Below are positions 22,833-27,182 of a DNA stretch of 41,177 bases, in pieces. This DNA is from an uncultured Holdemania sp. GTDB taxonomy: Bacteria > Bacillota_I > Bacilli_A > Erysipelotrichales > Erysipelotrichaceae. Location of the stretch: positions 1 through 41,177 of the forward strand of contig CAMQTJ010000013.1 in NCBI GenBank assembly GCA_947037125.1, given 5' to 3'. The notes beneath the pieces are model-generated. The model was not told where the DNA came from and searched no databases. It saw nothing but the letters and a program-made list of their open reading frames with translations. Every line of letters begins with the position of its first letter. Within the stretch, counting starts at the first letter, position 1. The position numbers and the translations under genes are program-made.

Positions 22833-22866
22833 AAAAGATATTTTCTATAATGAAAATATCTTTTTT
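22833..22866 (+). terminator. Terminator after the kinase
   Basis: Perfect 13-bp stem AAAAGATATTTTC (22833-22845) / GAAAATATCTTTT (22852-22864), six-base loop, T run to 22866. Confidence 0.85.
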
Positions 22867-23000: not shown

Positions 23001-23029
23001 TTGCTATTATTAATAAATTAAAGTACAAT
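23001..23029 (+). promoter_or_regulatory. Promoter of the ABC/YgbA/YbaN operon
   Basis: TTGCTA (23001-23006), 17-bp spacer, TACAAT (23024-23029). Predicted start about 23036, at the edge of the palindrome at 23037. Confidence 0.55.
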
Positions 23030-23036
23030 GTAAAGC

Positions 23037-23054
23037 AGTTAGTCAATACTAACT
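23037..23054 (+). promoter_or_regulatory. Operator-like palindrome at the transcription start of the ABC operon
   Basis: AGTTAGT-CAAT-ACTAACT, perfect seven-base arms, about 20 bp before the first gene. MarR- and TetR-type repressors use such sites. No regulator gene is adjacent in this window. Confidence 0.6.
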
Positions 23055-23075
23055 AAGTATAGAAAAGAGATATGT

Positions 23076-24824
23076 ATGATAAATAAAAGATTAATTAAAC
23101 TAGTACCATATGCAAAGATTCATATTTTAAAAAGTGTATTATTTCAATGGCTTACACTGCTATGTAATATTGTGATAATGATTTTCTTATCAATTATTAT
23201 TTCTAATTTAGTTAATTTTAATAGTTTATCTGATTCAAATGAGATGTATACAATAATAATTGCTTCAACTTTAGTAATTACTATTTGTATTTTGGCACGC
23301 TTTATATTTACAATTTTAGCATCAATACAAAGTTACAAGGCATCAAAATCAGTTAAAAGAATATTAAGAGAATTGGTATATAAACAATTATTGAAAACTG
23401 GTAGTATTTACAAAAAAGAACTATCTACAGCATCAGTTATACAAGTTAGTGTTGAAGGAATAGAACAACTCGAAACATATTTTGGTAATTATTTACCACA
23501 ATTTTTTTACTCAATGCTTGCTCCAATTACACTATTCATATTATTATCATTTGTAAGTTTCAAAGTTGCTATTATTCTATTGTTATGTGTTCCACTTATT
23601 CCAATTTCAATTATTTTTATACAAAAGATAGCAAAAAAATTACTTGCGAAATACTGGGACAAATATACAACATTAAGTGATAATTTTCTAGAAAATCTTC
23701 AAGGAATTAATACACTTAAGATTTATCAATGTGACGAATATAAACATAAGCAAATGAATAAAAACGCTGAAGAATTTAGGAAAATAACAATGAAAGTTTT
23801 AACTATGCAATTAAATTCGATAATTATTATGGATATAGTTGCTTATGGTGGAGCTAGTTTAGGAATTATATTAGCACTAATTCAATTTTCTAATAATGAT
23901 TTAAGTTTATTTTCAACTATTTTGATTATGTTATTAGCGGTAGATTTCTTTTTACCTTTAAGATTATTAGGTAGTTACTTTCACATAGCGATGAACGGTA
24001 TGGCAGCTAGCAAAAAACTATTTGAAATAATCGATTTAACAATTCAAAATGAAAAAACTAATTTAATTTCAAATTATAATATAATAATTGAAAACTTATC
24101 TTTTTCTTATGATACCAAAATAAATACACTACATGAAGTAAACCTTGTCATACCAGAAAATACTTATATATCAATCGTTGGTAAAAGTGGAAGTGGTAAA
24201 TCAACTTTAGCCTCTTTGCTTTCTAATATTAATACAAACTATAGTGGTAGTATTAAAGTTGGCAATATCCAACTTAACACAATTAATCATGAATCAATAT
24301 CAAAAACTATCACAATGATTGGATCGAATAGTTACATATTCAAAGGAAGTATAAGAGATAATTTATTGATAGGCAATAAATTTTCTACAGATATTAATAT
24401 GTGGGAAGTTTTAGATCAAGTTAATTTATCAGATTTTTTAAAAAATGAAAATGGTTTAAGCACGATGATATCTGAAAATGGAAATAATTTATCTGGTGGC
24501 CAATGTCAACGTTTAGCATTAGCAAGAGCCTTATTACATGATAGTAAAATTTATATATTTGATGAAGCTACAAGTAATATAGATATAGAGAGTGAAGCAC
24601 ATATTATGGATGTTATTAAAAAATTATCAACGCATAAAACTGTCATAGTAATTTCACATCGTCTAGCTAATGTAATTAATTCGGATAATATTTATATGCT
24701 TGCTGATGGGCTAATTGTCGAAAATGGCACTCACAAAAAACTACTAAAAAATAAGAAAGAATATTCAAAATTATATTATGCCCAGCAAGATTTAGAATGT
24801 ACAAAAGGTGACTTATATGAATAA
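23076..24824 (+). CDS. ABC exporter half-transporter, CydD-like
   Basis: 582 residues: six membrane helices in the first 310, then an ATPase domain. Visible: Walker A VGKSGSGKST, signature LSGGQCQRLALARAL, Walker B IYIFDEATSNID with the catalytic Glu, and the switch His in VISHRLAN. The Q-loop reads MIGSNSYIFKG, so the usual Gln is Ser. The pairing with the next gene and overall pattern resemble CydD of the CydDC heterodimer, which moves thiols/haem-related compounds and supports cytochrome bd. Other heterodimeric exporters are possible. Its stop overlaps the next gene by eight bases. Predicted operon promoter and palindrome lie upstream. Confidence 0.82.
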   Translation: MINKRLIKLVPYAKIHILKSVLFQWLTLLCNIVIMIFLSIIISNLVNFNSLSDSNEMYTIIIASTLVITICILARFIFTILASIQSYKASKSVKRILRELVYKQLLKTGSIYKKELSTASVIQVSVEGIEQLETYFGNYLPQFFYSMLAPITLFILLSFVSFKVAIILLLCVPLIPISIIFIQKIAKKLLAKYWDKYTTLSDNFLENLQGINTLKIYQCDEYKHKQMNKNAEEFRKITMKVLTMQLNSIIIMDIVAYGGASLGIILALIQFSNNDLSLFSTILIMLLAVDFFLPLRLLGSYFHIAMNGMAASKKLFEIIDLTIQNEKTNLISNYNIIIENLSFSYDTKINTLHEVNLVIPENTYISIVGKSGSGKSTLASLLSNINTNYSGSIKVGNIQLNTINHESISKTITMIGSNSYIFKGSIRDNLLIGNKFSTDINMWEVLDQVNLSDFLKNENGLSTMISENGNNLSGGQCQRLALARALLHDSKIYIFDEATSNIDIESEAHIMDVIKKLSTHKTVIVISHRLANVINSDNIYMLADGLIVENGTHKKLLKNKKEYSKLYYAQQDLECTKGDLYE

Positions 24825-26460
24825 TTTTACTGTAATGATGCGACTTTTAAAACTTGTTAAACCGTTAACTTTTTATATTTTTGTAGCCGTTGTAACTGGA
24901 GTTTTAGGATTTTTATGTGCAAGTTTTATTACAGTATTTGCAGGATTTGGTCTATTAAGCATCATGGGACTCAATAATTTTACATTACAATCAATATTTA
25001 TCATTATTTCTATCTTTGCGGTTTCGCGAGGTATTTTGCATTACATTGAACAGGCATGCAATCACTATATTGCATTTAGAATTTTAGCACTAATTAGAGA
25101 TAAAGTATTCGAAGCTATCCGAAGATTATCGCCTGCAAAACTAGACAACGAAAATAAAGGTAATCTAGTTGCTCTTGTAACAAGTGATATTGAATTATTA
25201 GAAGTATTTTATGCCCATACAATTTCACCTTTAATTATTTCTTTAATAACTACAACTATCATGGTTTGTTTTATCGGTTATTACCATATCACTTTAGGAA
25301 TTATTTCTTTATTAGCATATATTATCGTCGGAATTATTATACCGATAACTGCTTCAAAAATGACAAAAAAAGTAGGTTTATTATATAGAAATGATTTTGG
25401 TAACATGAATTCATATTTTTTAGATAGTTTAAGAGGTATTCAAGAAGTAATTCAATTTAATAATGGTGAGCAAAGAATAAATGGGATAAATAATCAAAGT
25501 GACAAAATGGAAAGTTCATTTTATCATCTTAAGAGAATTTCAGGTGTTACTGTTGCCTTTACCGGATCAATAATATTGGCTTTTACAATTATATTACTAC
25601 TATTTTCAAGCACATTATATATCAACAATCAAATCAATTTTGATGCAGTTGTCATAACAACACTAATATTACTTACCTCTTTCGGTTCGGTAATCTCACT
25701 TGCAAATCTTGGCAGTGGTTTATCTACCACACTTGCTAGTGGAAATAGAGTTTTAAATCTTTTGGATGAACAACCAATTGTTAAGGAAGTTAATAATGGT
25801 GAGGATATTAAATTTACAAGTGCTAATATAAATAAGATTAATTTTTCTTATGACAAAGAAATTATACTAAAAGAATTATCTTTAAATATTATACCAAATA
25901 AAATAAATGGAATTATCGGAAAATCTGGGAGTGGTAAATCAACAATTTTAAAACTATTAATGAGATTTAGAGATGTAGATAGTGGCTCTGTTGTTATTTC
26001 TTCAAAAAACATTCAAAATATTAATACAAAAAGTTTACGTAATTCCCAAAGTTTCGTTACACAACATACTCAAATTTTTCACGATACTATTGAAAACAAC
26101 ATTAAAATCGCAAATATTTCAGCAACCTATGAGCAAGTTGTATCTGCTGCAAAAAAAGCATCGTTGCATGAATTTATAATTCAACTACCAAATTCTTACA
26201 AAACTATAATTGGCGAACTTGGTGATAATTTATCAGGTGGAGAAAGACAAAGAATAGGAATAGCTAGAGCTTTTTTACACGATGCTCCCTTACTATTATT
26301 AGACGAGCCCACAAGTAATCTTGATAGTTTAAATGAGGCAGTTATTCTTAAATCTTTGAAGCAAGATACAAATAGAACTATAGTTATTGTTTCACATCGA
26401 CTATCAACATTAAATATTGCAGATAATCTATATATTTGTGAAAGTAGTAGAAAAAGTTAG
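24817..26460 (+). CDS. ABC exporter half-transporter, CydC-like
   Basis: 547 residues from the ATG at 24817, six bases after AAAGGTGA; a GTG three codons earlier overlaps that ribosome site. Six membrane helices, then Walker A GKSGSGKSTIL, Q-loop with Gln (SFVTQHTQIFHDTI), signature LSGGERQRIGIARAF, Walker B LLLLDEPTSNLD, and VSHRLS. All catalytic residues are present, unlike its partner, whose Q-loop is altered. Most like CydC. The C-terminus is short, ending soon after the switch His. It shares a base with the next gene (TAGTG). Confidence 0.82.
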   Translation: MNNFTVMMRLLKLVKPLTFYIFVAVVTGVLGFLCASFITVFAGFGLLSIMGLNNFTLQSIFIIISIFAVSRGILHYIEQACNHYIAFRILALIRDKVFEAIRRLSPAKLDNENKGNLVALVTSDIELLEVFYAHTISPLIISLITTTIMVCFIGYYHITLGIISLLAYIIVGIIIPITASKMTKKVGLLYRNDFGNMNSYFLDSLRGIQEVIQFNNGEQRINGINNQSDKMESSFYHLKRISGVTVAFTGSIILAFTIILLLFSSTLYINNQINFDAVVITTLILLTSFGSVISLANLGSGLSTTLASGNRVLNLLDEQPIVKEVNNGEDIKFTSANINKINFSYDKEIILKELSLNIIPNKINGIIGKSGSGKSTILKLLMRFRDVDSGSVVISSKNIQNINTKSLRNSQSFVTQHTQIFHDTIENNIKIANISATYEQVVSAAKKASLHEFIIQLPNSYKTIIGELGDNLSGGERQRIGIARAFLHDAPLLLLDEPTSNLDSLNEAVILKSLKQDTNRTIVIVSHRLSTLNIADNLYICESSRKS

Positions 26461-26774
26461 TGAATAAAAAAGAAAAAGAACAACAAATTGTTGAATTAAT
26501 GATTAATTTATATTGCCGTAAAAAACACAAAAATAAAAAACTTTGTAGAGAATGTCAAAATCTATTAGATTATGCTAATTTAAAAATTTCAAAATGTCCA
26601 TTTATTGATACAAAAACTTTTTGTTCAAATTGTTCAGTTCATTGTTATCAAGAAAACTATAGAATTAAAATTAGGCGTATTATGAAATATTGTGGACCTT
26701 TCATGATATTCTTTCATCCAATTATAGCTATAAAACACTTATTATCAACAATAAAAGAAAGGAAAAAGTATTAA
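26460..26774 (+). CDS. YgbA-type nitrous-oxide-stimulated promoter family protein
   Basis: 104 residues. Start GTG (26460-26462) shares its G with the TAG of the ABC gene; there is no clear ribosome site, so translational coupling is likely. Eight Cys occur in pairs: LYCRKKH, LCREC, KCPF and FCSNCSVHCY, then the conserved MKYCGPFM and HPIIAIKHL. This pattern matches the YgbA_NO family, linked in enterobacteria to nitric-oxide-responsive promoters. A metal or iron-sulfur site is plausible from the Cys. Cytosolic or membrane-associated. Molecular function is not established. Confidence 0.85.
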   Translation: MNKKEKEQQIVELMINLYCRKKHKNKKLCRECQNLLDYANLKISKCPFIDTKTFCSNCSVHCYQENYRIKIRRIMKYCGPFMIFFHPIIAIKHLLSTIKERKKY

Positions 26775-26778
26775 TATT

Positions 26779-27156
26779 ATGAATCTAAAAAAAATTATTT
26801 ATGTTTTAATTGGAACTTTTAGTATTGTTATTGGAGCTATAGGAGCAATCGTTCCATTACTGCCATCTTTTCCATTTCTTCTTTTAGCAACATGTTGCTT
26901 TGGTAAAAGTAGTGATAAATTAGACCATAGATTTAAGTCATCTACACTATATAAAAATAATCTAGAATCTTATGTAACCGGTAATGGTATGTATATGAAA
27001 GTTAAAATAAAAATTCTAATTATGATAACAATTTTACTAACTTTTGGATTTATAATGATGAATGATATCTTTATTGGTAGACTTGTTATTATTATAGTTT
27101 GGCTGTTTCATATTTATTATTTTTCACTTAAAGTTAAAACAATTAAAAAAGGCTAA
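26779..27156 (+). CDS. YbaN / DUF454 inner-membrane protein
   Basis: 125 residues, ATG at 26779 with AAAGGAAAAAG upstream, five bases after the YgbA stop. GAIGAIVPLLPSFPFLLLAT, then CCFGKSSDKLDHRFKSSTLY and NLESYVTGNGMYMKVKIKIL are the DUF454 signature. Three predicted membrane helices. The family is of uncertain function and often occurs with respiration or haem-related genes. Last gene of the four-gene operon, closed by a strong terminator. Confidence 0.9.
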   Translation: MNLKKIIYVLIGTFSIVIGAIGAIVPLLPSFPFLLLATCCFGKSSDKLDHRFKSSTLYKNNLESYVTGNGMYMKVKIKILIMITILLTFGFIMMNDIFIGRLVIIIVWLFHIYYFSLKVKTIKKG

Positions 27157-27182
27157 TTCCTAATTTTGGAAATAGCCTTTTT
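27146..27182. terminator. Bidirectional terminator between the ABC operon and gatB
   Basis: AAAAAGGCTAATTCC (27146-27160) and GGAAATAGCCTTTTT (27168-27182) pair with a small mismatch; both flanks are A/T tracts suited to either strand. Confidence 0.85.

Follow-up and report, generated by a model that had tools for sequence, protein, structure and literature searches.

In Escherichia coli, the half-transporter pair CydDC exports haem (PMC10374445, PMC13337084). Its axial haem ligands are CydD H312 and CydC H85 (PMC10374445). Two further E. coli genes bear on this report: ygbA is repressed by NsrR, both there and in Salmonella (PMC2884951, PMC1274295), and ybaN belongs to the core Fur regulon (PMC7157518, PMC10164565). 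A DUF454 protein is induced by iron restriction in Avibacterium (PMC7970244), and an ECF transporter scavenges haem in Staphylococcus lugdunensis (PMC7299338). Neither YgbA nor YbaN/DUF454, two families whose conservation reaches from E. coli to gut Bacillota, has a known function.

We analyzed a stretch of 41,177 nucleotides from an uncultured Holdemania sp. (contig CAMQTJ010000013.1; hereafter the window), in which relatives of cydDC, ygbA and ybaN lie together. The features are:

23001..23029, + strand: promoter-like hexamers TTGCTA-17-TACAAT, 9/12 consensus positions
23037..23054, no strand: operator palindrome AGTTAGT-CAAT-ACTAACT (7+4+7), exact; candidate DtxR-type box
23076..24824, + strand: ABC1, CydD-like half-transporter, 582 aa (PF00664 and PF00005)
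24817..26460, + strand: ABC2, CydC-like half-transporter, about 547 aa (PF00664 and PF00005)
26460..26774, + strand: YgbA, 104 aa (PF11756)
26779..27156, + strand: DUF454/YbaN-like membrane protein, 125 aa (PF04304)
27146..27182, no strand: inverted repeat AAAAAGGCTAATTCC...GGAAATAGCCTTTTT, read from the sequence in the interval between the operon and the convergent gatB

The four genes overlap or lie at most 4 bp apart. ABC2 is taken to start at ATG 24817, overlapping ABC1; the open reading frame list begins it at GTG 24808 instead. YgbA has a GTG start and shares one base with the ABC2 stop. Pfam calls ABC_membrane and ABC_tran on both transporter genes, YgbA_NO on the third gene (PF11756, 135 bits, cut-off 25) and DUF454 on the fourth (PF04304, 104 bits, cut-off 35). 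The initial annotation had placed four coupled genes and a palindrome here, and the open reading frames, the Pfam matches and the exact palindrome match bear it out; it was also right that no repressor gene adjoins them within the window. We propose that this is probably an iron-starvation-induced operon, in which a DtxR-type repressor would control a CydDC-type transporter of haem or another tetrapyrrole together with two accessory proteins.

The inverted repeat at 27146–27182 was not called in a terminator scan; it is a possible terminator for the operon and gatB sides. Another inverted repeat, with 13-bp arms, lies at 22833–22864 of the window, 3' of a histidine kinase gene. It is probably the kinase terminator, setting the kinase gene apart from the operon. 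A link to this upstream kinase was rejected because the kinase is not conserved as a neighbour in 40 related loci.

No zero-mismatch match occurs in the window besides the palindrome itself, which lies 21 bp 5' of the ABC1 start (ATG 23076). Matches with up to three mismatches are at chance level (4 found, 4.5 expected). With 7 bp between the end of the promoter-like pair and the palindrome, the latter would cover the predicted transcription start, and the spacing of the two is suitable for this; comparable promoter matches in this AT-rich stretch do not exceed chance (40 found, 36.6 expected). In the 2.49-Mb Holdemania genome (135 contigs), GTTAGT-N4-ACTAAC occurs exactly at two places, the operon studied here and a DUF2325-DUF3793 operon (L012:3737–4623, contig C10), which thus holds the sole other exact copy. 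Matches with up to two mismatches number 92, fewer than the 302 of a reversed-pattern control, so weak matches carry no meaning. For comparisons between genomes we used a strict box, GTTAG-N6-CTAAC, made of the outer arms of the palindrome. Six genomes of relatives hold 45 strict boxes against 38 sites for the reversed pattern, which is about equal. Because totals are near or below such controls, genome-wide counting was dropped as evidence. The argument for the box is its location, rather than its number.

Location was assessed in a sample of 145 Erysipelotrichaceae genomes. YgbA is present in 45 of them, and we inspected 40 loci (549 kb). The order ABC1-ABC2-YgbA-DUF454 is intact in most of these loci, with variable flanking genes, the upstream histidine kinase included. 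The 549 kb contain 29 strict boxes, all 29 at the operon; arm-shuffled controls gave 0–2. In the Erysipelotrichaceae loci a strict box stands 5' of 24/47 operon-first genes and 8/355 other genes (Fisher p 4e-19), and these eight appear to use the operon's own intergenic region. A second set comprised 80 named loci, chiefly from Clostridia but also from Olsenella and other groups, and gave 27/83 and 27/568, respectively (p 2e-12). Where ygbA stands apart from the ABC genes, it has a box of its own in some genomes (L162, L182). Conservation and position together raise the box above chance. Of gene order and palindrome, which the initial annotation had singled out for comparison across Bacillota, the order is kept in most of the 40 Erysipelotrichaceae loci, and the strict box is enriched before the operon both there and in the 80 named loci. 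The operon is real and conserved, and it is widespread in gut Bacillota.

Two side observations come from these loci. In six relatives (G110, G130, G144, G065, G094, G024) the YgbA profile match spans one in-frame stop, which may reflect profile ends overrunning the gene or true decay. Small DUF4405-like membrane proteins recur beside the operon (L069:11764–11946, L156:7719–8042, L170:3179–3598); only the L069 protein reaches the Pfam cut-off for DUF4405.

The strict box also links the operon to iron genes. In the Holdemania genome it occurs twice 5' of feoA and once 5' of feoB. On a contig other than that of the operon, a 123-aa DtxR-family gene (PF01325 and PF02742; G000:C5:52827–53195) lies next to feoA, beside the box, and is divergent from feoA-feoA-feoB. 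One additional site falls within a gene (L016), and the list of boxed genes in this genome is partial. The two other DtxR paralogues of the genome have no box nearby. There is likewise no strict box at the loci around its six TetR genes, and DtxR was preferred to TetR as the likely owner of the box. The initial annotation had pointed to a MarR or TetR repressor; with the six TetR loci boxless and a DtxR-type gene recurring beside the box, this is not supported. Short regulators adjoining the box in two relatives (L146, L159) have equally weak scores with MarR and iron-dependent-repressor profiles.

Other genomes place the same genes side by side. In Acetatifactor muris, dtxR and the operon are divergent, and two boxes are present. 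In Ca. Faecousia, dtxR adjoins ygbA/DUF454; in Velocimicrobium porci, feoA-feoA-feoB lies 5' of ygbA; and in one further locus (L199) feoB adjoins the operon. The genome of one relative (G059) has the same 16-mer at its dtxR-feoA-feoB locus and at the operon. We read all 45 strict sites in the six relatives; by our own classification, about 28 lie at the operon or upstream of an iron or metal gene. Many strict sites of one genome (G124) lie away from both. Boxed genes in relatives include feoA/feoB, FecBCD-type importers, Trep_Strep ECF transporters, NrdI with DUF3793, Dps, a Fur-family gene, a ZnuA-type importer, a YbtPQ-like transporter and a short DtxR/MarR-like regulator. Three of these, namely Dps, Fur and the second FecCD gene, were identified by eye, without a profile search.

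Several boxed genes deserve a separate record. In genome G113, a strict box lies 22 bp 5' of a Dps-like gene (L253:2958); an iron-uptake-type box is unexpected for iron storage. Another strict box of that genome lies 31 bp 5' of a half-transporter gene (L150:1248–3060) placed with YbtP in our tree; in Acutalibacter (L223), a pair resembling this half-transporter adjoins the operon. DUF3793 comes after a boxed NrdI-like flavodoxin gene in two relatives (L135, L152). Trep_Strep ECF genes are boxed repeatedly (L134:3072, L148:9075, L258:3001, L265:2968), and the substrate of these transporters may be an iron compound or haem.

Because the box is common to feo genes, importers and NrdI/DUF3793, and because dtxR or feoB sometimes adjoins the operon, the operon very probably belongs to a DtxR-type iron regulon. 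DtxR-family repressors may respond to iron or manganese, and the gene content of the regulon points to iron. The repressor is most likely the 123-aa DtxR-family protein. On the sequence evidence, iron control of the operon is the most likely form of regulation.

The transporter pair resembles CydDC without reaching the family thresholds. NCBIfam equivalog scores are 371.7 bits against the CydD cut-off of 435 and 274.0 bits against the CydC cut-off of 329. We therefore call the pair CydDC-like, not CydDC. A quick tree with long branches places ABC1 sister to CydD (SH-aLRT 98) and ABC2 to CydC (86), apart from YbtP/Q, MsbA and MdlAB. On this placement, a YbtPQ-type siderophore importer was rejected. 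In pairwise comparison ABC1 is nearest to E. coli CydD, and ABC2 is about equally close to YbtP, MsbA and CydC. Two-domain exporters dominate a sequence search of solved structures; among single half-transporters with structures, CydD is the best listed for ABC1, and Sav1866 and MsbA for ABC2.

Both haem-ligand columns are kept. At the CydD H312 column, histidine occurs in 77/77 ABC1 sequences and 0/12 other half-transporters. At the CydC H85 column, it occurs in 81/81 ABC2 sequences, but also in 4/12 other half-transporters. The stacking residues F195 and Y311 are replaced by W and F in the operon pair; the CydC arginines R81 and R136 are replaced by Q and H and are thus not kept. Cytochrome bd maturation was rejected as a role, since CydA scored above cut-off in 0/145 Erysipelotrichaceae genomes. 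Ferrochelatase was found in none of the 145. Cytochrome bd is therefore an unlikely client, and haem, if it is used, is probably external.

Neighbouring genes in some relatives also concern haem. A NEAT-domain gene overlaps the operon end in one locus (L222), and a NEAT-like gene is placed between ygbA and ABC1 in two others (L169, L194). In an Erysipelotrichaceae locus (L077), NEAT and FecBCD-type genes lead directly into DUF454-ABC1-ABC2-ygbA. Trep_Strep/CbiQ/ATPase genes of an ECF importer extend the operon run in four loci (L169, L173, L194, L219). NEAT was not found in the Holdemania genome and occurs in 5/145 genomes of the family; it is too rare there for family-wide co-occurrence to be used as evidence, and that comparison was dropped. 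The initial annotation had suggested a haem or thiol response. The haem part is strengthened as a candidate by the kept ligands, with the NEAT and ECF neighbours as context rather than proof; thiol export stands as a possible rival.

The reading we prefer is as follows. With Fe(II) plentiful, a DtxR-family repressor would bind the palindrome over the transcription start and silence both the operon and FeoAB. As iron becomes scarce, the four operon proteins would be produced. ABC1 and ABC2 would form a CydDC-type heterodimer with its two haem-coordinating histidines kept. The substrate of the heterodimer would most likely be haem or another iron tetrapyrrole, which it would probably bring into the cell to supply iron. 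The inward direction is suggested by the NEAT haem-binding and importer genes that some relatives have as neighbours. To YgbA, with its four invariant cysteines and conserved histidine, we would assign the uptake or processing of the iron or haem, and to DUF454 a supporting role at the membrane. Sequence gives good support to the operon itself, to the conservation of its operator, to the box in common with feo and dtxR, to the clade and the haem ligands of the pair, and to the lack of cytochrome bd and ferrochelatase hits in the family sample; the repressor, its metal, the substrate, the direction and the roles of YgbA and DUF454 are inferred. Taken part by part, haem or another tetrapyrrole is somewhat favoured as the substrate, and uptake rather than export is a tentative assignment. 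The exporter nature of CydDC fits iron starvation awkwardly.

In two other readings the pair exports. One, which we consider unlikely, is an iron-repressed exporter whose substrate, a thiol or an iron-mobilising compound, would reduce or solubilise Fe(III) and so feed Fe(II) to the co-regulated FeoB, with YgbA and DUF454 protecting or tuning the process. Thiol export has been described for CydDC, and both thiols and haem affect its ATPase (PMC4132815); the pair has an exporter fold, and the operon has its box in common with FeoAB. But the two haem-ligand histidines are invariant and would be needless for a thiol substrate, some relatives have NEAT and ECF importer genes joined to the operon, and chelator biosynthesis genes are not recurrent beside it. 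The other, a decidedly weaker candidate, is a detoxification pump that exports surplus haem or porphyrin, with YgbA and DUF454 as haem buffers and iron control as a secondary matter. The haem export known for CydDC (PMC10374445, PMC13337084) and the ligands kept in the operon pair agree with it. However, an operon that has its box in common with iron uptake genes is expected to be expressed under iron scarcity rather than haem excess, and no haem-sensing regulator recurs beside the operon.

In YgbA, C46, C55, C58, C62 and His93 are invariant in 85/85 sequences, E. coli included. The protein is predicted to be soluble, with a confident helical model. Operon YgbA is 34% identical to E. coli YgbA, with the four cysteines and His93 kept, and the operon DUF454 protein is 33% identical to E. 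coli YbaN. The DUF454 protein scores 59 with the YbaN equivalog profile, below the cut-off of 163. Searches of PDB folds with good models of YgbA and DUF454 gave no match for either. The operon unites two orphans whose enterobacterial control already touches iron or NO. A nitric-oxide stress module with YgbA as effector, the response that the initial annotation had raised, is nevertheless very improbable: ygbA is NsrR-repressed in E. coli and Salmonella (PMC2884951, PMC1274295) and Hcp is somewhat commoner with YgbA (7/45 YgbA-positive and 5/100 YgbA-negative genomes), but NO control is known from enterobacteria and not from the present setting, the box most likely belongs to an iron regulon, the Holdemania genome is without Hcp, as are all but those 7/45 YgbA-positive relatives, and its TetR genes have no box nearby (six loci). 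NO could act indirectly, through damage to Fe-DtxR.

Returning to the proposed haem transporter under iron control, we also offer a more speculative extension, to which we give a low probability. YgbA and DUF454 might be dedicated partners of a haem-importing CydDC branch in anaerobes without cytochrome bd and ferrochelatase, with the four-cysteine core of YgbA receiving or releasing iron. If so, one shared chemistry would account for the NO control of ygbA and the Fur control of ybaN in E. coli. More generally, a joint operon with an iron-type operator and a ligand-keeping CydDC-type transporter turns two orphan families into testable iron or haem proteins. It further suggests that anaerobes making no cytochrome bd use a CydDC-type transporter for their iron nutrition. 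The box itself gives a readable iron-regulon mark in a fair share of the gut flora.

Five known systems are close enough to compare. E. coli CydDC shares the tandem half-transporters, the CydD/CydC grouping and both axial haem-ligand histidines; the operon pair differs in being 27% identical to it, in its two extra co-operonic proteins and in its iron-type operator. The siderophore importer YbtPQ, an exporter fold used for uptake, is likewise an iron-linked pair of that fold, and YbtP is close to ABC2 pairwise, but in the tree YbtP/Q fall with other half-transporters, apart from ABC1/ABC2. NEAT/Isd-type and ECF haem uptake have a counterpart in the NEAT and Trep_Strep ECF genes that are boxed or contiguous with the operon in some relatives, whereas the Holdemania genome is without NEAT. 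E. coli YgbA and YbaN are homologous proteins, and YbaN is Fur-controlled (PMC7157518); there ygbA and ybaN are separate single genes with ygbA under NsrR, whereas here they lie in one operon with an iron-type box. DtxR/IdeR-type iron regulons with feoAB share the DtxR-family gene by feoA-feoA-feoB, the common palindromic box, the importers and NrdI/DUF3793. Here, in contrast, the repressor is short (123 aa), the box arms read GTTAG-N6-CTAAC, and YgbA, DUF454 and a CydDC-like pair are among its members; we did not find such a regulon described in the literature searched. The novelty lies in the combination of parts, not in kind.
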